DNA from: a virus
DNA length: 44,147 bases
Reading direction: 5' to 3' (one strand)
IMG/VR virus record: IMGVR_UViG_3300006026_000028
Location: 1-44,147 of that record
Part shown: one piece after another, positions 17,174 to 30,133 of the stretch
Layout of the letters: each line of letters opens with the position of its first letter
Numbering within the stretch: the first letter of the stretch is position 1
Translations under genes and position numbers: made by a program
Notes under the pieces: model-generated
What the model saw: only the letters and a program-made list of their open reading frames with translations
Told to the model about the DNA's origin: nothing
Databases searched by the model: none

Positions 17174-17202
17174 GAGGGGCCACGGTTAGCCCCTCATTTT
17201 TT
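17174..17202 (+). terminator. Intrinsic terminator after gene 32
   Basis: GAGGGGC (17174-17180), 8-base loop, GCCCCTC (17189-17195), then ATTTTTT. It stops rightward early transcription in front of the converging minus-strand tail genes. A competing CCCCTCATTT at 17137-17146 could pair with the same GAGGGG. Confidence 0.9.
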
Positions 17203-19021
17203 ATGGTGCTGCCTGATACAATCCATCAGTATTATAAAAACCTTCACTGATCATATTGATTGTACTGCTATTATCTTCAGAGAAAGAAGCATTATTAGTA
17301 GATGCATCTACTATTCTGGCTATTTCATCACTCGTAAACCCTGCTTCAACACCGGCTCGTCTTACCTCAAGTTCTGCTACTTTTCTTGCAAGATCAGTCT
17401 CAATTGACCTTCTCGCTTCTTCCATCGTAGAAGTCATTTGAGCTCTTTGAACTTGAATTTCTTTAAGATCTTCAGTAAAATCAGGAAGAAAATAACCTAA
17501 TTTAGGATTATTTGCTTTAAAATCTACAAAGCTTTGAAAAATAGTTTCTTTTATGAGATTAGGTACATTACCTATAAATTCTGCAATACTTAAAAATCCT
17601 ATTTTAATTTTTGCAACAGCATTTGCAAATTTTTCTTCTGCATCAATTGCTATAAGTCTTGGTGTTTTTCTAAACCATTCTTCAATCATTCCAAGACCTG
17701 CTTTAAAATTTGCTTTTATGTTATCATATGATTCTATTAGCATAGTTTTGAGGTCGAGTTCAGGCAAGTCTAACTTAATACCTAATTTCTCTGCAAACCA
17801 TTCTGTAATAGGAGCAATTGCTTTATTGTACACAAATTCACCAATCTCAAGATAACCTCCTTGTAATATTAAAAATCGTTTCCATAAATTCGTTAAGCTA
17901 TCTTTGATTGATGTTTCGCCTGTAAAAAGACCTGCAAACCAATTAAATGCTGCTTCGCCAATTTCGAATACACCTCTAATCAGTGAATTAATTGATTCTT
18001 TGAAATTGAATTTTTGCACTGCTAATAGTGCATCACCTGCTAAACCTTGACCTTCTTTAACTGTTCCATCTTCATTGGTTTCTAAACCCAATAGATTTTT
18101 TAAAATCCAAGTCATAGCTCCTTTTAACAAATCAAGTGGAGCACCTAAGAAATCACCAAAAAATGCAGCAAAACCAGCTTTTGTCTTATCAAATACTGAA
18201 CCTTCTTCTCCCATAAAAGCAGTAACGGCTTCATATGCACTGAATAACACACCAATTGGCTTTAAAAGCTTACCTAAAAAACCCGCAACTTTTCCTGCCG
18301 GACCTAAAATATTTGCATTAATAAATGAAAATAATCCTTTACCAGCACCTGTAATAAAATCAACAATGCCACTGCTAAGTTTTACAAGTGGACTTAATAA
18401 ACGGTTAATTTGAAATGTTACACGACCAACAATATTCTTTTTAAATAGACCATCATCACCTTGTGCTATAATTGGTTTGCCATCCGCGCCAAGACCAAAC
18501 ATGGATAGTGCTCTAATTCTAAGAGCATTCATTCTCATAGCAATTTGAGTCGTTATAGGTGCGGCACGCTGGAACCGTCCTTGCGCATCTCTCGTAAGAA
18601 GACCTTCTGCGGTAAGACCAAAAATACCAAGAACAGCATTTCTCATTCTTATCACGCCATTATTGATTGTGGTAGGTATATTGGTTTTTATTATATCTTT
18701 AAGTTTTTTAATTGCACCAACTTCCCAGCCACGCAAGCCTGCCATAGCGGCGGCGAATGCACTAATACCACCAATTAAAGGTGCTATTAAAGCTGCTGGT
18801 GACCTAGAAAGAATTCCTAAACCACTGTTACTAGAACCACGACTTGGAACACTAGCAGTTGGACTTCTTCCTCGACGACCCTGTTCACGCAACGCCTCTA
18901 ATTGGTCACCAGCCATTTGAGTTTGCTTATCCAAAAACTTTTTAATTAAGTCTTTTGTATCTTTTGTATTTTCGTTTGTAGTTTTTAACTCTTTAACTAC
19001 ATCATCCAATTTTGCTGACAT
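17201..19021 (-). CDS. 29: Tail tape measure protein (gp29-like)
   Basis: A 606-aa protein, very close in length to T4 gp29 (590 aa). The N-terminus is a charged coiled coil (DVVKELKTTNENTKDTKDLI), then a Ser/Arg-rich linker, then long hydrophobic, Gly/Ala-rich helices (about 75-100 and 220-290: AALIAPLIGGISAFAAAMAG and others). That is typical of tape measure proteins, which set tail length and are ejected ahead of DNA. Direct sequence similarity to T4 gp29 is not obvious by eye; position after the gp26/gp51-like chaperone frames is the second support. Its ATG follows the stop of that frame immediately. Confidence 0.8.
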   Translation of the reverse strand: MSAKLDDVVKELKTTNENTKDTKDLIKKFLDKQTQMAGDQLEALREQGRRGRSPTASVPSRGSSNSGLGILSRSPAALIAPLIGGISAFAAAMAGLRGWEVGAIKKLKDIIKTNIPTTINNGVIRMRNAVLGIFGLTAEGLLTRDAQGRFQRAAPITTQIAMRMNALRIRALSMFGLGADGKPIIAQGDDGLFKKNIVGRVTFQINRLLSPLVKLSSGIVDFITGAGKGLFSFINANILGPAGKVAGFLGKLLKPIGVLFSAYEAVTAFMGEEGSVFDKTKAGFAAFFGDFLGAPLDLLKGAMTWILKNLLGLETNEDGTVKEGQGLAGDALLAVQKFNFKESINSLIRGVFEIGEAAFNWFAGLFTGETSIKDSLTNLWKRFLILQGGYLEIGEFVYNKAIAPITEWFAEKLGIKLDLPELDLKTMLIESYDNIKANFKAGLGMIEEWFRKTPRLIAIDAEEKFANAVAKIKIGFLSIAEFIGNVPNLIKETIFQSFVDFKANNPKLGYFLPDFTEDLKEIQVQRAQMTSTMEEARRSIETDLARKVAELEVRRAGVEAGFTSDEIARIVDASTNNASFSEDNSSTINMISEGFYNTDGLYQAAP

Positions 19022-19216
19022 TTAATTTCGGGCCTCTTTTTGGCGTTGTTCTTCTTCCTTTAAGTGTTGTATCAGTAATGAAAGATAAACTTCTCTTTCC
19101 CATGGTATCATTTCGTCTATCTCAGTCAATGAATATTTGTGATGTTGCATCAAACTGAATGAAGTCTGGTAATATGTACTCAGATTGTTATGAGATAGAC
19201 TTACTAGAAAAAATTT
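19022..19216 (-). CDS. -1 frame extension of the tail assembly chaperone (gp51-like)
   Basis: In the -1 frame relative to the gp26-type gene, an open frame runs from the slippery site to a TAA at 19022-19024, touching the tape measure ATG. After the slip it adds about 62 codons, reading LVSLSHNNLSTYYQ... then SLTEIDEMIPWEREVYLSLL and an acidic/Gln-rich end. The I-P-W-E-R-E motif resembles T4-like gp51 hub-assembly proteins as I remember them. No well-placed start codon exists: the first ATG is 20 or so codons in and has no Shine-Dalgarno. It is therefore most likely made as a gp26-gp51 fusion. Confidence 0.72.
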   Translation of the reverse strand, partial: KFFLVSLSHNNLSTYYQTSFSLMQHHKYSLTEIDEMIPWEREVYLSLLIQHLKEEEQRQKEARN

Positions 19217-19905
19217 GCCATTCCTTCCAATGTTTTCTTGTTTTTCATTTTACATGATACACACTCAAATTCTATATCATGACTAAGTTTAGGCATTCCA
19301 TCAACAAAATCTTGTATTAACTGAAACTGATTTCGGTCCATTGATTCGATGAACTCTTGAATTTCTTCAGGATTTTCATCTCTCATGTCAATTCGTTCAT
19401 CTTCTGTTATAACGTATGCTATACAAGATCTTAAAAGGTCAAATGCTGCTTCTGTACTGTCCATATTTTCATCGCTAATATCAGTAATTGAAGAATATAA
19501 AGGATATTGCATTTCTATGCTAATAGTATCAGAGATTTCAATAACACGATTACCTGATGGTGTTTCAATATCCAAAGATTCTAAATTTACATTTACTTCA
19601 TTTTTTTCTTTACAATGATCACATTCAATTACAATTGTAGATGTTTCTCCAACTGATTTGGATCTGAGTTTAGTAAACATGAACTCAACATCAAAAGTAG
19701 TAAGTTTTGTTTTGTTTAATCCATCAACACAAGCATCGAGAGTATCAACCACTGCATTGAGCATCTGTCTATTGTCTTCTGATTCCATTGCAATCATTAG
19801 AACTTTTTCTTCTTTTACCAAAAATGGTCTAAATCTAACAATATCTCCTGTAGAAGGGATTTTCATTTCATATTTTGGTTTATCATTTAGCTTAGGTAAT
19901 GCCAT
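19204..19905 (-). CDS. 26: gp26-type baseplate/tail assembly chaperone
   Basis: A 233-aa protein matching the T4 baseplate protein family of gp26 (PF12322 type): MALPKLNDKPKYEMKIPSTG at the start, FRPFLVKEEKVLMIAMES (25-42), and an internal helical region. It has two CxxC pairs, C95/C98 and C215/C218, that could hold a zinc. In T4, gp26 acts in assembly of the central baseplate hub. Here it lies directly upstream of the tape measure gene with a -1 frame between, matching the position of lambda G. Its last codons, AAT TTT TTC TAG, form a slippery sequence. Confidence 0.8.
   Translation of the reverse strand: MALPKLNDKPKYEMKIPSTGDIVRFRPFLVKEEKVLMIAMESEDNRQMLNAVVDTLDACVDGLNKTKLTTFDVEFMFTKLRSKSVGETSTIVIECDHCKEKNEVNVNLESLDIETPSGNRVIEISDTISIEMQYPLYSSITDISDENMDSTEAAFDLLRSCIAYVITEDERIDMRDENPEEIQEFIESMDRNQFQLIQDFVDGMPKLSHDIEFECVSCKMKNKKTLEGMANFF
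19207..19216 (-). promoter_or_regulatory. Candidate -1 ribosomal frameshift site
   Basis: Read on the minus strand, A-AAT-TTT-TTC precedes TAG. Both A AAT TTT and T TTT TTC fit the X XXY YYZ heptamer rule for -1 slippage in the gp26 frame. A -1 slip bypasses the stop and enters the frame ending at 19022. Confidence 0.68.
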
Positions 19906-19932: not shown

Positions 19933-20706
19933 TTAATATGGTCCGGTTCTGTTCAGATCCAGTCTTGCTATTACTCCGGGTGGCGGCGAATCTGGGTATG
20001 GAGTTGTAATTGGTTTTGTTGTATTGATTGGTTCTGCTTTTTCTGTTAAACCCTGGCTTTTTGGTGTGAAATTAGACGTCCAATTTTTATAAGATAATTG
20101 AATCTGCAACTGCATTACATCTTCCATACCATTTCCCAATTCAACTGCTGACATGGTTGTGCAAAATGCTTTTTGTAAATTGCATTCATAAACAACGGAT
20201 TCTCTAAAAATTGGTAAATCAATATCCAACTCACCTTGAGCAATATCAAGTGAGCCTATTCTAGGCAATCTATTCTGTATTTCTGTTGGTAATGTGGGCA
20301 ATCCAATCGGTGTATTATATACTGGTAATGTAAAACCTTTTTTTAACTGTTGAATTTTAATATCAAAAGTATAGTCACTGTGGTAACCTGGCTGTAAAGT
20401 ATTTGGATCTAATGCCAAGGCTTGCCATGTTTCAAAATATTGTCTCACTCCATAATCATTTAAAAGTAAAAATGTCATATTTACATCATCATATGCTTGA
20501 TCATATGCTACTTTTTGAAGTATTGTTCCAATCTTTCTTTCCTGTGTCATAATTTGCCGACCAGGTAAGTTAACATTAGTGCACAATAAATTTATGTCTC
20601 TACTTGTAGCACCAGGCATTGATGGCAAGAAAACTCTAAAGACATTACCTTTTGCAATGCCACCCTTCGATGATATCAAGCCTTTCATTTCATCAATGCT
20701 AGCCAT
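19933..20706 (-). CDS. 54: gp54-like baseplate-tail tube junction protein
   Basis: A 257-aa protein with a tail-tube fold signature: KGNVFRVFLPSMPGATSRDI (19-38), CTNVNLPGRQI, a DYGVRQYFETWQ helix and a C-terminal VYECNLQKAFCTTMSAVEL...QLQIQLSYKNW segment. Marine T4-like phages carry proteins of this type annotated as gp54, which starts the tail tube on the baseplate. T4 gp54 is longer (320 aa). The C-terminal 35 residues are Pro-rich. Overlaps the upstream gene by 8 bp. Confidence 0.75.
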   Translation of the reverse strand: MASIDEMKGLISSKGGIAKGNVFRVFLPSMPGATSRDINLLCTNVNLPGRQIMTQERKIGTILQKVAYDQAYDDVNMTFLLLNDYGVRQYFETWQALALDPNTLQPGYHSDYTFDIKIQQLKKGFTLPVYNTPIGLPTLPTEIQNRLPRIGSLDIAQGELDIDLPIFRESVVYECNLQKAFCTTMSAVELGNGMEDVMQLQIQLSYKNWTSNFTPKSQGLTEKAEPINTTKPITTPYPDSPPPGVIARLDLNRTGPY

Positions 20707-23590: not shown

Positions 23591-24925
23591 ATGGTAAAGC
23601 AATATACACAATCATCTTTTGATTACAGACTAGATGATGTTAAATATATGCCTGATGGTGATGAGAGCTCAAAAGATAATATTAGCATTGCTAATATCAT
23701 ATTCCAAGTTGACATATTCGAAAATATAGAAAGGCCATTTTTATCAGGGCAAATTATATTAAGCGACAATACTGGAATTTATGATAAATTTTTAGATATA
23801 AAAGGCACTGAAAGACTCTTATTACAATTTTCAAACCCTGAAACTACTAATGTAATTGAAAAAAGATTTGTAATAAGAAAGGTACATTCATCTACTAAAA
23901 CAGCTGAAAGATCAGAAAGCATTATTCTTAATATTGTTGATGAAACATATTATATTGATACGGTATTACAATTTAGCAAAGCGTTTAAAGGTACTCCAGA
24001 TGTTATTGTTAAGAATATTTTAAAGGATCAACTCAATGTTGAATTAATATCTCCACTAATAAGTCCATATCAAGATTCCATGAAAGTTGTAGTTCCTTAT
24101 ATGACTCCTTTAAAAGCTGCAAAGTGGATAACAAATAGAGCAAGTACGGAACACGGGTTTCCATATTATCTTTATGCTACTTTATTTGATAGTAAACTTA
24201 CATTAAAATCATTAGAAGAAATGTTTACCCAAGATTATTGGAATACGGAATATGATTTTCAATATTCTCAAGCACGAAATGAAAGAGAAACTAATTTAGT
24301 TCATCCAAGAAACTTATATAATATCAATGATTTTAAACAGAATAATACCGAAGATACATTATTATTAATGGAAAGGGGTTCAATCGGATCTTCTTACACT
24401 GTTATAGATTTAACGACTGGTGTATCAGATACATTTAGATTTAATTCAGATCAACTTTTTAAAGATGTTATTTTTGGAAATAAGCTGTTAGGAAAAGACA
24501 CAGATAAAATGCTAGGCTTACTTGATGATACTAGTGTTTTTGGTGATGATAATTTCAAATTAAGTGATCGAAATGGGCAAAATTATGACAGAGTGGTAAT
24601 GGTGAATACATATAATGACATCGGAAATTACTATACAGGAACATTTAGATTAGATGCTACCTCAAAGGCAATAAAAAATATTATTGTTAAATCCAGTGCT
24701 AAAATAAGTGTTGGCGGTTACATATTTTTTAGTGGTTCAGAAAATAGAACAATTGGGTCTAAAATTAATATAGATTTTCCAAACAACAGATCAGATATAG
24801 AATATCAAAATAAAGATTTAAAAAGATCAGGTGAATATGTAATACACTCTTGTCGGCATTCTTTTATTCAAGAAAGACATATGATAGATGCAACAATTGT
24901 GAAATTAGGGAATTTAAAAGAATGA
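23591..24925 (+). CDS. 27: Baseplate hub protein (gp27-like)
   Basis: A 444-aa protein. IANIIFQVDIFENIERPFLS (28-47) and GTERLLLQFSNPETT, then VRKVHSSTKTAERSESIILN-like strands and a helical part (ILKDQLNVELISPLIS), fit the gp27/gpD-type hub that forms the trimer ring beneath the tube. Length is close to T4 gp27 (391 aa). Identification rests on fold-like pattern and position next to gp5. The stop overlaps the gp5 start by 4 bp. Confidence 0.72.
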   Translation: MVKQYTQSSFDYRLDDVKYMPDGDESSKDNISIANIIFQVDIFENIERPFLSGQIILSDNTGIYDKFLDIKGTERLLLQFSNPETTNVIEKRFVIRKVHSSTKTAERSESIILNIVDETYYIDTVLQFSKAFKGTPDVIVKNILKDQLNVELISPLISPYQDSMKVVVPYMTPLKAAKWITNRASTEHGFPYYLYATLFDSKLTLKSLEEMFTQDYWNTEYDFQYSQARNERETNLVHPRNLYNINDFKQNNTEDTLLLMERGSIGSSYTVIDLTTGVSDTFRFNSDQLFKDVIFGNKLLGKDTDKMLGLLDDTSVFGDDNFKLSDRNGQNYDRVVMVNTYNDIGNYYTGTFRLDATSKAIKNIIVKSSAKISVGGYIFFSGSENRTIGSKINIDFPNNRSDIEYQNKDLKRSGEYVIHSCRHSFIQERHMIDATIVKLGNLKE

Positions 24926-25914
24926 GTGATCGTAATGAATTTACAGGACCACAAACTACAGCTTTCTATGGCGATCAAATAAGATGGTTTGTCGGAACCG
25001 TTATAGAAAAAGGCAATGATTTCCCACAGTTAGGTAGAGTTAAAGTAAGAATCTTAGGCATTCATGGTCCAGAAGTCAGTAATCATGATATACCATATGC
25101 ACAAGTCTTAATACCTACCACTGAACCAGGAACATCGGGTCTTGGATGGAATTCTGCACTCGAACCATCGGCTGCAGTTTTTGGAATATTTCTTGATGGT
25201 AAACAGTCTCAATTACCTCTTGTTTTAGGATCACTTCCTGTTGTAAATGTGCCATCTCTCACTCAAATAGAAGCAGGTATTGCTTGGAGTAATAGTGGGT
25301 CTCCAGGTGTTGGTGCACCTGCAACTATTGATGGAGCACTTGCTGGACCGCCTAGTAGCTTTTTTGTAGACCCAAATATTGAATACGGTGGTAATACTCA
25401 GTATGCTTGGTCCTATTTTAGAAGTACTGGAACCTTTACAGATATTGCTATTGCTGCACTGTTAGGTAATTTTCTTGTTGAGTCAGGTGGTGGCAAACCT
25501 CTTGATATTAGAACTTCTGTCAGAGGTGATCTAAATTTAAATGCAAGAGGTTCATTAGGTATTGCTCAATGGTATGCTGGTACTTCGAGACAGGATAATT
25601 TAATTAGATTTGCAAAAGAAAGAGGTGGTTCGGAGACAGATTTAACTATACAGTTGCAGTTTGTAGAGTATGAATTTATAACTGTATCTGAATATGATAT
25701 AACAAGATTAAATAATTATAATTCAATTGGACCAGCTACTGTTTATGTGCACCAATTTTATGAAAATCCTAAAAATACTGGTGCAAAAAGTGCACATCCA
25801 AATGAAACGAGAGGCAAAAAAGGTATTGCAAAATTAAAAGAATCAGAGAGAATAGGTTATGCCAAATCTGTATTTGAAACATTTACTAGAAAAACAAAAA
25901 GTAGTGCATTCTAA
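24922..25914 (+). CDS. 5: gp5-like hub protein with OB fold and tail lysozyme
   Basis: 330 aa from the ATG at 24922 (ATGA overlap). Residues about 20-110 are a gp5 N-terminal OB fold (VGTVIEKGNDFPQLGRVKVR, then PYAQVLIPTTEPG and LPLVLGSLP). Residues about 155-330 resemble the tail-type Phage_lysozyme2 family: IAALLGNFLVESGG with Glu187 as likely catalytic residue and SLGIAQW (211-217). It differs from T4 gp5, where lysozyme is of the T4L family and a beta-helix is fused at the C-terminus; here the beta-helix is in the protein at 27644. It digests peptidoglycan during tail penetration. The next gene starts on its last base. Confidence 0.85.
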   Translation: MSDRNEFTGPQTTAFYGDQIRWFVGTVIEKGNDFPQLGRVKVRILGIHGPEVSNHDIPYAQVLIPTTEPGTSGLGWNSALEPSAAVFGIFLDGKQSQLPLVLGSLPVVNVPSLTQIEAGIAWSNSGSPGVGAPATIDGALAGPPSSFFVDPNIEYGGNTQYAWSYFRSTGTFTDIAIAALLGNFLVESGGGKPLDIRTSVRGDLNLNARGSLGIAQWYAGTSRQDNLIRFAKERGGSETDLTIQLQFVEYEFITVSEYDITRLNNYNSIGPATVYVHQFYENPKNTGAKSAHPNETRGKKGIAKLKESERIGYAKSVFETFTRKTKSSAF

Positions 25915-27644
25915 TGGTAGACTTTACTCAATTTAATAATAAACTAGCACAAAGTGTAAAACAGTTTGAAAACTTAGATTTTCTTGAATCGTTTAAAACC
26001 GTTCAAGATGAATTCCAAACTGTAGCAGAAAGTGCTTTTAATAACGCCGAAGATTTTATAGAAGGTGAAATCAAAGGTGGCATACAAGCCATTGAATCTG
26101 CTGCTTCTGATTTAGCAGATAAAGTAAAAATTCTTGAACCACAAATAGCAAAAGCAACAAAAGAGATAGCAGATGAGATTCCTGCTATGAAAGAAGCTAT
26201 ATCATCCTCAGATATAACTAATCTTGAAAAGGTATTTGTTGCTGCAACAACAGGTAATACCGCTATTGATTTAGATGACATATATCCAGATATCCAATCA
26301 ACTGTTGAAACAGCAGAAGAAATGTTATTTGATATTACAACAACGGCAAATTTAGAAGGCGTTTATAAATCACTGAAAAATGCTGTTGAAAATTTAAATG
26401 ATACGGATCTTTCGAAGGTTCTTGAAAAGATAAAACCAGGTAATATTTCAGGTAAAGGTGATTTTAATCCTCTTGAAATGATGAGAGAGTTTGAGGATAA
26501 TATACAATCAGAAACATTCCAGAAATCATTAACAGCAGCCGTAGATAGATTTAACAATTCTTTAGGCGGCCTTCAAAAGGCAGGTGTGTTTTTAGCACAA
26601 CTGGAAAGTTTTCAATCGGCATTTTCAAATTCAATTTTTTCTGCAATTCCTAATTTTACAAGTAATATGGAAGAATTGTTAGTTGCATTTAGTAATGGTA
26701 ATGCTCAGTTATGTAGGTCTCTTGCTATTAAAGATATATCTTTTTCGGATGACTTGACAGCTGTTTTGGATGAAAATAATATTAAAGTGGATTTAAGTAG
26801 TGTAGAAGGTGTTCAAGATACAGTAACAAAAGCAAATGCTCTTAATTTGCCTCTTGCTCTTACAAGAGAATTGGATAATTTACAATCTATTATTGATTCT
26901 ATTGAAAAATTATTTCCTAATATTTTACCAACACCTGGTTCTTTCTTGCAGACACCTAAAGTTGTTGCTGACCCAACAACAGATACCGTAACGATGGCAG
27001 GTGGTAAAACTAGTAAAGGAACAGTAGATAATTTAAATGCTATCTTAAATAGTGAAGAAGATGTTGTATCATACATAAAATCAACTGAAAGAGAAATTAC
27101 ATCAGCTGTTGTAGACTGGACTGGGACTTTCAATGACCAACATCTTAACGCTACGTCAATCAATGAGTTATACTTAAATAATGAAAGAGAAGGAATTCCA
27201 TATCACTTTGTAATTAGAAAAGATGGTAAAATTGAAACAGGACTTCCTTTATCATCTAAAGGAAAATATAAAGAAAATTATAATGACCTTTCAATGGGAA
27301 TTGTTTTTGTTGCAGGTTACAATTCAGCAACACCTAGTAACCCAAGTGAAGACCCTGGAGAATTAACAGCTCAATCAATTACTAGTAGCCAAATGAAAGC
27401 ATTTAGGACTCTAATGAGTGGGTTCTATACAGCTATTCCACTTGGTCAAGCATATGGTTATTACGAATTATATGAATCAAGAGAAACTGTAGCAAAATCT
27501 GGACCAGGATTTTCTGTAAGTGAATTTGTAACTAAATCTCCTTTTCATAAAGGCAATTTAGGAGATGTCGTAGAAAATAAAAAATTCTATACAATAGATG
27601 AATTATCTAATTTATTACAAAAAGCAATTGAAGGAATAGATTAA
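25914..27644 (+). CDS. Baseplate protein with C-terminal degenerate amidase_2-like domain
   Basis: A 576-aa protein. Residues 1-370 are mostly amphipathic helix (SVKQFENLDFLESFKTVQDE and similar). Residues about 394-545 look like an N-acetylmuramoyl-L-alanine amidase (T7-lysozyme type): EITSAVVDWTGTFNDQ, then GIPYHFVIRKDGKIETGLPL and SMGIVFVAG, ending GPGFSVSEF. At the positions where active enzymes have zinc ligands (His, His, Cys) I read Asp in VVDWT, Tyr in AYGYYELY and Ser in AKSGPGF, so it is probably inactive and may only bind the wall or be structural. It sits between gp5 and the spike gene. Confidence 0.75.
   Translation: MVDFTQFNNKLAQSVKQFENLDFLESFKTVQDEFQTVAESAFNNAEDFIEGEIKGGIQAIESAASDLADKVKILEPQIAKATKEIADEIPAMKEAISSSDITNLEKVFVAATTGNTAIDLDDIYPDIQSTVETAEEMLFDITTTANLEGVYKSLKNAVENLNDTDLSKVLEKIKPGNISGKGDFNPLEMMREFEDNIQSETFQKSLTAAVDRFNNSLGGLQKAGVFLAQLESFQSAFSNSIFSAIPNFTSNMEELLVAFSNGNAQLCRSLAIKDISFSDDLTAVLDENNIKVDLSSVEGVQDTVTKANALNLPLALTRELDNLQSIIDSIEKLFPNILPTPGSFLQTPKVVADPTTDTVTMAGGKTSKGTVDNLNAILNSEEDVVSYIKSTEREITSAVVDWTGTFNDQHLNATSINELYLNNEREGIPYHFVIRKDGKIETGLPLSSKGKYKENYNDLSMGIVFVAGYNSATPSNPSEDPGELTAQSITSSQMKAFRTLMSGFYTAIPLGQAYGYYELYESRETVAKSGPGFSVSEFVTKSPFHKGNLGDVVENKKFYTIDELSNLLQKAIEGID
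27092..27139 (+). repeat. 48-bp segment shared with gene 32 (16985-17032)
   Basis: Encodes EITSAVVDWTGTFNDQ at the start of the amidase-like domain; 45 of 48 bases match the gp32 copy. It fits the amidase fold, so this is the probable original. Confidence 0.92.
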
Positions 27645-30133
27645 TGGGCCTTGTAGTATTACCTACTAATTCAGAAACAGTTTTACCAGAAAACCCAGAC
27701 AATGTTCCTGCTGGGGTTGTTGATAATGGAGATCCAAGAGGTGAATATCCACGGCCTCCCTATTTTGGTCAATCAAGTGTAAATAAAGAAGCAAGAGGTG
27801 GATCTGCAACTGAAGTAAAAACAGGTGGTTCTCATCCAAGTAATGGTAAATCAAATCCAGAACAACCTTCAGTAAGTCCAAAATATGGATCTGTTCAAGT
27901 AAAGGAAACTAAATCTGGTCATATACAAGTATTTGATGATACACCAGGTGGAGAAAGAGTTGTCCTAAAACATAGGACAGGTGCTGGTGTGCAGATGTCA
28001 GCTGATGGGTCTGTTGTAATTAGATCAAGAAATAATGCTGTTATTTCTATAGATGCAAATGGAGCGATTATCTGTGAGGGTGATTTTACATTTGTTACAA
28101 AAAATTTGAATATGGATATTAGTGGAGATCTTAACCTAGATGTAAAAGGTGATTATAATGTTAAGGTAGGTGGTAATCAAACAACTACAGTTGAAGGTGG
28201 TTTAAAAGAAAGCTCTAAAACAAAAAATGTCACAGTAAAAGGATTTAATGGTCAAACTGTATTAGGCCAAAATGTTTCTACCATTCTTGGTGCTTCTCTT
28301 GAAACCATTAAAGGAAATTCATCTCTTTCTGTAGAAGGTTCAATCACTCAAGCATCTAAGGGTGTCTATAGAACATCATCTCAAACAGAGATTATGGGTT
28401 CAAGTCCACGTATGTCTCTATTGGCTGGAGATATGTCGGTACTTGGTGCTGGTGGTACAATCGGTGGCGAGAATATGATTATGTACACCTACAATATGCA
28501 TGCCACTAAAACTGTTCATGCTGATACCATGGCAGCAAATGTTTTCCATGGTGATTTGAATGGTACAGCAAAAGAAGCGCTTGATGCGAACAGAGCGGCA
28601 ACTGCAGGAAGTGGCGCTGCTTCTCCAGGTGGATATACTACAGCATCTGTTGCTCTTGATAATACAGCAACTGCTGTGCCAAATTCAAACATGATGAAAT
28701 CTGCACTTAAATCAAGCAGAGGTGTAAAGAAAGTCTCAGTTGCAGATGATGTCATTAGAAATAGCATTGATAAATCTGGTGTTATGGGTGGCATTTCCGA
28801 TAGAAGCCTTGATCCAAGAGAAGCAAGAGCTAAATTAAAAGATCCTAATAACCGAAACAATAAGGATTTTATTGCGGCACTGTTAAAAGACGGTAGCGTT
28901 AGTAACAACTATTCCAACCCATCTGCGCCAGGTGTCAGAAGAACATATGGCGGAGAAGGTAGCACTACTAGGTCAAATACTGGAGCAAACTTTGTTGAAA
29001 GAACACGAACATACACTAAGTTTACGCCAGATCCTAGATTTAATCCTGATCTGATTGATCCTCGTGGCGAAGGTGCAAAGGCAATTACATCTAAAACACT
29101 TGTTGCTGAAGGTATACCTATCTCTACATTTTTAAGTGGAGTTGGTGGTAAAACTAATTTAGGACATCTTGCAACATTTAGTGAACGAGCGGCACTCATG
29201 AGGCAACTTGTTTTACAGGCAGAAGTAATTAAATTATGTAAAAACAATATTGGTAGATTCGAAGATTTTAGAATTGTTGTTGCAGAGGGTGTTTACAAAC
29301 CAGCAGCAAAAGAAACACTTGATAAAAAATCAATTCCTTATCTGAGAAAAACAGGGCAAGCAATTGTATATGAACTATATGACAAAGATGGTAATATCAA
29401 TATTGAAAGTTCATTTGAATTTGCGGAATACTTAGCTGAAAACTTATTTGGCTACGATAAAATACAATTGAGCTATGATAAAATTGATCCAAATAAAGAT
29501 GGTATTCATGTTCAAATTGTGGTTGTAATGCCAGAGATTAATGAAGATTTTAATATTGTTGGTAAAGCGAGCCCTGACTTTAAAGTTGCTACAGAATTTA
29601 ATAATACGGTTTTGTCTCCACGTGATTTAATTGAGGTTGATGAAAGTGGTAGTCCAGTATCAGATGCACCAGTCGCTGGCGAGACTGCTCAAGGTGGTCT
29701 GATAGAATATCAACTTATTGATAAGTCAAGAGATTTACGTGTCTCCAAAAAACTTGAATTAATTCTTGCAAATGCCGCAATAAAATCTGGAGTGGATGTT
29801 GTGGTGATTACATCTGGCGGTCAACCAGGATCAAAAGGTAAACGTGTCGGTAGTACAAGACACGATACATTAGAAGCTGCTGACCTCAAGTGCAAAGTTA
29901 ATAATAGATTTTTGAATAAGGATATTTCTTCTGATAGAGCAATCTTAGAAAAATTTGTAAGAGCAGCTAGAGCAGAGGGTATTTTAGCTGGCGGCATGAG
30001 TTCAAGCTATATGGGAGTAAACACGATGCACCTTGATACACTTGGTGCTAATTTGGGTGGTGGAAGATTTGATAGAAGAACTGTTACTACATGGCTATCT
30101 GATCAATGGTTTATAAATGCGATGACTAGCTGA
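27644..30133 (+). CDS. Central spike protein: gp5 C-terminal beta-helix plus peptidase-like domains
   Basis: An 829-aa protein. Residues about 85-290 are VgrG/gp5-type repeats (GVQMSADGSVVIRSRN, NMDISGDLNLDVKGDYNVKV, GNQTTTVEGG) expected to form the trimeric membrane-piercing beta-helix. A linker follows. The middle (about 480-660) has FRIVVAEGVYKPAAKETLD and YDKIDPNKDGIHVQIVVVMP, a possible worn D,D-peptidase-like unit. The C-terminus (about 690-829) resembles a hedgehog/DD-peptidase (M15-like) fold: GSTRHDTLEAADLK with H740 and D747, and NTMHLD with H796. So spike and a likely peptidoglycan peptidase are fused. Needs a fold search to confirm. Confidence 0.78.
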   Translation: MGLVVLPTNSETVLPENPDNVPAGVVDNGDPRGEYPRPPYFGQSSVNKEARGGSATEVKTGGSHPSNGKSNPEQPSVSPKYGSVQVKETKSGHIQVFDDTPGGERVVLKHRTGAGVQMSADGSVVIRSRNNAVISIDANGAIICEGDFTFVTKNLNMDISGDLNLDVKGDYNVKVGGNQTTTVEGGLKESSKTKNVTVKGFNGQTVLGQNVSTILGASLETIKGNSSLSVEGSITQASKGVYRTSSQTEIMGSSPRMSLLAGDMSVLGAGGTIGGENMIMYTYNMHATKTVHADTMAANVFHGDLNGTAKEALDANRAATAGSGAASPGGYTTASVALDNTATAVPNSNMMKSALKSSRGVKKVSVADDVIRNSIDKSGVMGGISDRSLDPREARAKLKDPNNRNNKDFIAALLKDGSVSNNYSNPSAPGVRRTYGGEGSTTRSNTGANFVERTRTYTKFTPDPRFNPDLIDPRGEGAKAITSKTLVAEGIPISTFLSGVGGKTNLGHLATFSERAALMRQLVLQAEVIKLCKNNIGRFEDFRIVVAEGVYKPAAKETLDKKSIPYLRKTGQAIVYELYDKDGNINIESSFEFAEYLAENLFGYDKIQLSYDKIDPNKDGIHVQIVVVMPEINEDFNIVGKASPDFKVATEFNNTVLSPRDLIEVDESGSPVSDAPVAGETAQGGLIEYQLIDKSRDLRVSKKLELILANAAIKSGVDVVVITSGGQPGSKGKRVGSTRHDTLEAADLKCKVNNRFLNKDISSDRAILEKFVRAARAEGILAGGMSSSYMGVNTMHLDTLGANLGGGRFDRRTVTTWLSDQWFINAMTS

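Follow-up and report, generated by a model that had tools for sequence, protein, structure and literature searches.

Frameshifting in the tail assembly chaperone (TAC) genes of phage lambda (G/GT) and of other phages was reportedly described by Xu, Hendrix and Duda in 2004. The slippery heptamer of lambda is G_GGA_AAG, unlike the one described here, and we know of no sequence similarity between lambda G/GT and the TAC of the present locus. In E. coli dnaX, a heptamer A_AAA_AAG and a short local stem-loop direct a shift of about 50% efficiency, and the shifted product is the shorter one. T4 has been named as an exception to the G/GT frameshift of long-tailed phages (PMC5009743). The pair of short and long TAC genes of T4 is attributed to Vladimirov, Gautam and Davidson (2022, Virology 566:9–15, doi 10.1016/j.virol.2021.11.003) by PMC10885494; PMC12846349 credits the same work with poly-T frameshift signals in TAC genes of T4-like phages. 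On that basis the kind of system is already known: frameshifting in TAC genes is common among phages, and T4-like TACs bearing poly-T signals have been credited to earlier authors. The novelty implied by the initial annotation of this DNA, which knew of no frameshift fusion in T4-like phages, is therefore not fully upheld.

The stretch of DNA that we analyzed (the window, 44,147 nucleotides) contains a locus that belongs to a marine T4-like phage. The gene neighbourhood is that of a T4-like tail/baseplate module, with tail tube, DNA end protector, tail tube cap, wedge subunits and hub/lysozyme. The features of the locus are, in the direction of transcription:

19933..20706, minus strand: tail tube family protein (phrog_45, 5.7e-30), just upstream of the gp26-type gene
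19204..19905, minus strand: gp26-type tail assembly chaperone, short form, 233 aa, ending ...EGMANFF before the stop
19222..19228, minus strand: SD-like GGAAGGA (AGGA at 19225..19222), 8 nt 5' of the heptamer
19210..19216, minus strand: second formal heptamer A_AAT_TTT, unconserved and probably incidental
19207..19213, minus strand: slippery heptamer T_TTT_TTC (U_UUU_UUC), conserved, adjoining the 0-frame stop
19201..19206, minus strand: 6-nt spacer TAGTAA from heptamer to stem, containing the 0-frame stop
19191..19200, minus strand: stem 5' arm GTCTATCTCA, 10 bp with 19124..19115
19115..19124, minus strand: stem 3' arm TGAGATAGAC, within TEID codons, pairing with 19200..19191
19022..19207, minus strand: –1 frame extension, gp51-type (phrog_634), C-terminal part of a predicted 294-aa long form
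17201..19021, minus strand: 606-aa ORF, putative tape measure protein by its position

The gp26-type ORF (19905..19204) indeed ends in ATG GCA AAT TTT TTC TAG on the minus strand, as initially annotated, with the TAG at 19206..19204. The –1 frame, reported as open past this stop, runs from gene offset 656 to a TAA at 19024..19022 and comprises 61 codons after the heptamer. It encodes LVSLSHNNL...PWEREVYL...ARN, with the C-terminal end ...TEIDEMIPWEREVYLSLLIQHLKEEEQRQKEARN before the TAA. The first ATG of this frame 3' of the heptamer (19150) lies within the conserved part and lacks an SD, which agrees with the earlier view that the extension has no credible start of its own. The extension had also been said to end exactly at the ATG of the tape measure gene. 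Its TAA does directly abut the ATG of the next ORF at 19021, but the name of that ORF stands on position and composition: profile searches of the 606-aa product gave no Pfam or other family match, and BLASTP of this candidate against an ORF of C48C1 gave none. In Pseudoalteromonas phage XG4, the ORF in the syntenic position encodes an M23 peptidase domain (7.7e-19). Tape measure proteins in these phages seem to diverge very fast. Elsewhere in the window, matches to the gp5-type hub/lysozyme profile are split between two plus-strand ORFs (24850–25914 and 27644–30133), with an amidase-containing ORF (25914–27644, plus strand) between them.

The 0-frame product belongs to PF12322 (T4_baseplate; 3.1e-59, 200.8 bits against a curated cut-off of 24.5) and matches phrog_150 (2.7e-62); it is the one PF12322 gene of the 44-kb record, which may be a fragment. 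The extension, called gp51-type in the initial annotation on account of its PWERE motif, matches phrog_634, 'baseplate hub assembly catalyst' (1.8e-29). Since it also matches positions 230–282 of phrog_150, PHROGs apparently includes some joined members. Matches in BFVD were T4-like baseplate hub chaperones, some of them named gp51-like or hub assembly catalyst. The AF2 model of the 0-frame protein has a mean pLDDT of 92. With residues 1–95 of this model, VIA-align ranked 3fgx (Z 7.7), 2ob9 (Z 6.8) and 3klu (Z 6.5) first, with the fourth match at 4.0; a Z of 7–8 is by itself middling. The three leading structures, including 2ob9 from HK97 and 3klu (YqbN), are all phage TACs (PMC9603447). Foldseek against the PDB gave no significant match, TACs included, and a sequence search of the PDB with the gp26 profile gave no match. 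GTP cyclohydrolase IB, which filled the first Foldseek rows against the PDB, superposed poorly. The modeled N-terminal domain thus appears to have a TAC fold, and since the Foldseek scores alone are non-significant, we regard the fold match as support, not proof.

This locus very probably encodes a TAC in two forms, made by –1 frameshifting at U_UUU_UUC with the aid of the SD-like element and the stem. Most ribosomes would stop at the TAG and release the 233-aa short form, like lambda gpG. A minority would slip one base back on U_UUU_UUC, with tRNA-Phe in the P and A sites re-pairing with UUU, and would read 61 more codons to produce the 294-aa fusion, like lambda gpGT. Slippage would be helped upstream by pairing of the SD-like AGGA with 16S rRNA, and downstream by the stem that starts 6 nt after the heptamer. 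The role of the short form would be to cover the tape measure protein, and that of the extension to bring in tail tube subunits. The occurrence of frameshifting, its rate and these chaperone roles are what we infer from the comparisons below. The rate may be low, since in E. coli U_UUU_UUA and U_UUU_UUU are reported to shift far less readily than A_AAA_AAG (PMC5009743).

Conservation of the slippery site and of the frame among relatives had been proposed as a check on this reading. A first scan of 39 relatives with 34–100% identity found the –1 extension together with NNT TTT TTY in 39/39. In the larger set, T_TTT_TTN occurs in 276 of the 279 loci that could be analysed, which form 172 non-redundant clusters (XacN1 was set aside from this count). 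The three exceptions are T4, the Klebsiella Tevenvirinae phage KpV477 and the Ackermannviridae phage P46FS4. Carriers include Kyanoviridae, pelagiphage Mosig, Pseudomonas phage pf16, Stenotrophomonas phage Moby, Rhizobium and Agrobacterium phages, Aeromonas phage phiWae14, Vibrio Schizotequatrovirus, Pseudoalteromonas phage XG4 and the jumbo phage XacN1. An additional check found four more T4-like Tevenvirinae loci without the heptamer, and found it in two KVP40-like loci, one rhizobial locus and one re-examined locus. All 276 heptamer-bearing loci conserve the –1 extension (56–79 aa). In Xanthomonas jumbo phage XacN1 (L050 3770–4016), a T_TTT_TTT is placed 30 nt ahead of the 0-frame stop and leads into a –1 extension that is long and divergent; the short form of this phage would thus bear an extra tail of its own.

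T_TTT_TTN occupies the junction in 172/172 clusters over a GC range of 30–54%, while in-frame occurrences elsewhere are rare (43 per 103,391 codons). The junction encodes Phe-Phe in 161/172 clusters, and all 161 use T_TTT_TTY. Of 250 other Phe-Phe pairs in the same loci, 11 have the heptamer, against 172/172 clusters at the junction (Fisher p ~1e-102, with relatedness ignored). These counts exclude a chance origin of the heptamer at this place. The codon before TTT always ends in T, though it encodes D, S, A, N, G, R or F. One could argue that the T run is kept merely for the Phe-Phe of the protein and that the –1 frame is a decayed remnant, because gp26 of Tevenvirinae also ends with an EFF motif and has no extension. 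This explanation is extremely improbable: Tevenvirinae encode the two Phe without the heptamer (GAG TTC TTT or GAG TTT TTT), the PWERE motif and the length of the –1 frame are kept across clusters, and in 11/172 clusters TTA or TTG replaces the second Phe with Leu and leaves the heptamer unbroken. The latter changes indicate that selection acts on the RNA.

In 33/172 clusters a –1-frame stop touches the heptamer on its upstream side, and therefore the shift must occur in the T run. Both legal heptamers named in the initial annotation are present in the window, but T_TTT_TTC alone is conserved. The codon AAT of the window is AGT, GAT, TCT, GCT and others in relatives, and A_AAT_TTT was rejected as the main slip site because of this lack of conservation. 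A homopolymeric T run at the junction of every cluster would also suit transcriptional slippage, in which RNA polymerase loses register on the run and a fraction of the transcripts is frame-shifted. Bacterial transcriptional slippage has been described for A or T runs about 9 long (PMC5009743), whereas the T run measures 6 in 104/172 clusters, 7–8 in 67 and 9 in one; at 6–8 in 171/172 clusters it is too short, and we rejected this mechanism on that ground. An SD-like element and a stem at fixed distance are, moreover, stimulators of ribosomal frameshifting, which leaves slippage by the polymerase very unlikely.

The SD-like element recurs across clusters as AGG or GGA, 9–13 nt 5' of the heptamer. 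At this place the energy of the anti-SD duplex averages –6.0, compared with 0.36 at other positions (whose means have an sd of 0.84 and a minimum of –1.5), and AGG is found there in 91% of cases against a background of 10%. The Gly at this element is conserved in the protein too, and the choice of synonymous codons is biased as well: GAG accounts for 66% against 26% of Glu codons, and GGR for 63% against 35% of Gly codons.

Downstream of the heptamer, the window is predicted to form a 10-bp stem with a 5' arm that starts after 6 nt and pair probabilities of 0.86–1.00 (100-nt stretch: MFE –19.9, dinucleotide z –1.97). The same stem is found in related clusters, with the outer G-C changed to C-G in L059. 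Across the data set, 60-nt segments fold better than their shuffles just after the heptamer only (z –1.8 at +5), with z about 0 upstream of it and from +70 onward; a single predicted helix explains this signal. The mean best helix is –11.3/–12.1 with the 5' arm at +6/+7 and –5.6 elsewhere (sd 0.77). A helix of –12 kcal/mol or lower is available in 71% of clusters against 8.6% of control places, and one of –16 kcal/mol or lower in 46% against 1.1%. The position of the 5' arm is fixed, and the location of the 3' arm differs between lineages: among the 172 clusters it falls in the PWERE codons (70), at mid-distance (22), locally (22) or in the EID codons (17, window included), and 41 have no strong helix by our own threshold.

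In the PWERE class, synonymous third positions covary, CTT with GAA and CTC with GAG. Since preselection of loci by stem energy is biased, covariation was measured again on all 161 motif-bearing clusters without helix preselection; the two synonymous pairs then gave phi values of 0.58 and 0.55, against absolute values of at most 0.36 at control positions. On the tree, the covarying traits change 17–22 times, and phylogenetically independent pairs agree 6.2:0.7 (median p 0.07) and 5.1:0.6 (median p 0.125). From these independent pairs, each position taken alone, the covariation is suggestive rather than decisive. Taken together, these comparisons show selection on the heptamer, the frame, the SD-like element and the stem.

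An alternative that needs to be considered is that the extension represents a small gp51 gene in its own right, with translation from its own start or by reinitiation past the 0-frame stop, and without any fusion. GenBank records do annotate gp51 as its own CDS, and 56/172 clusters have an ATG of the –1 frame no more than 15 nt from the 0-frame stop, some as TAATG or TGATG overlaps, which leaves room for reinitiation in those clusters. However, the other 116 clusters, the window among them, have no ATG within this distance. A good SD and start for the second frame, which the initial annotation considered fatal to its proposal, were looked for in relatives, and the nearby ATGs have no SD in front of them (median duplex energy 0.6 against –4.0 kcal/mol at gp26 starts); 36 of the 56 fall inside the stem. 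The SD-like element is spaced for the heptamer, the heptamer itself would be left unexplained, and T4 gp51 is itself a fused protein. The absence of the heptamer and the presence of TAATG in P46FS4 also speak for a separate gene, which as an account of the extension is nevertheless improbable.

The junction of this Salmonella phage (L053 3700–3896) reads GAA ATT TTC ATC TAATG; it has a single PF12322 gene with the conserved –1-frame extension, and may have switched to an overlapping start.

The fusion that –1 frameshifting would produce has a counterpart in T4. In hhalign comparisons, the fusion profile aligns with T4 gp51 over 236 columns (1.8e-18) and crosses the junction, and with T4 gp26 over 203 columns (1.9e-23), ending at the slip site. 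Taken separately, the N-terminal and the C-terminal part of gp51 each match this profile (1.6e-8 and 9e-7), while controls (shuffles, reversal and unrelated T4 proteins) gave E values of 0.01 or worse. Both gp26 and residues 1–201 of gp51 belong to PF12322, and there are two PF12322 genes in T4 and KpV477 and one in each of 15 other complete phages. By these alignments, T4 gp51 is homologous to the full fusion and gp26 to the short form, and genes 26 and 51 of T4 look like the short and long forms encoded as separate genes. The earlier statement that gp26 and gp51 are separate proteins in T4 thus holds, and the interpretation as a –1 frameshift TAC is supported both by the conservation of heptamer and frame in 276 loci and by the end-to-end homology of the fusion to gp51.

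T4 and KpV477 have no –1 extension, and encode the two Phe as GAG TTC TTT or GAA TTC TTT. Their gene 26 (L043 and L055) continues for a few in-frame codons past the old slip site and ends in EFFELL and EFFKIMS, to be compared with DFFRIALSH. It is possible that these extra codons are the scar of a lost frameshift.

We lean slightly towards a three-part cassette as the common arrangement in T4-like phages, in which the 5' arm stays fixed 5–8 nt after the heptamer and the 3' partner has been relocated between lineages (to PWERE codons about 110 nt off, to the EID codons of the window's clade about 90 nt off, or to nearer hairpins), all within conserved coding sequence, and T4 would later have replaced the whole device by gene duplication. 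Such a cassette, with a stem whose 3' partner moves between lineages, may be new. The survey suggests that the T4 exception is limited to the Tevenvirinae sampled here, T4 and close relatives, and that cyanophages, pelagiphages, KVP40-like, rhizobial and other T4-like phages retain the frameshift signal. The cassettes, found at very different GC, also provide a natural set for testing the contributions of stem and SD-like element.

As to database records, GenBank gp51 CDSs begin at an internal TTG or ATG and lose the conserved LSH part (L042 3783–3887, L044 3762–3896, L052 3684–3824). A mis-split of gp26 and gp51 is likely in most matching phage records, and probably affects hundreds of GenBank entries.

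Among the known systems, T4 gp26/gp51 is of the same family (PF12322) as the TAC of the window, with gp51 as the equivalent of the full fusion and gp26 as that of the short form; in T4 these are separate genes, whereas the window has one gene with a –1 frame extension. With lambda G/GT the locus shares the order of chaperone, –1 extension and presumed tape measure gene, and a shift located where the short gene ends, to which the window adds the SD-like element and the stem. The TACs of the phage Adele type (Vandenendeviridae/Andersonviridae, GTTTTT motif) likewise combine a poly-T –1 site where the TAC gene ends with an open –1 frame, with frameshifting inferred by comparison only; they belong to other phage families than the window, and the portion of their description available to us mentions no stem or SD-like element (PMC12846349). 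The E. coli dnaX signal has the same three parts, an SD-like element upstream, a heptamer and a stem downstream at similar distance, and this is a likeness of mechanism, not membership.
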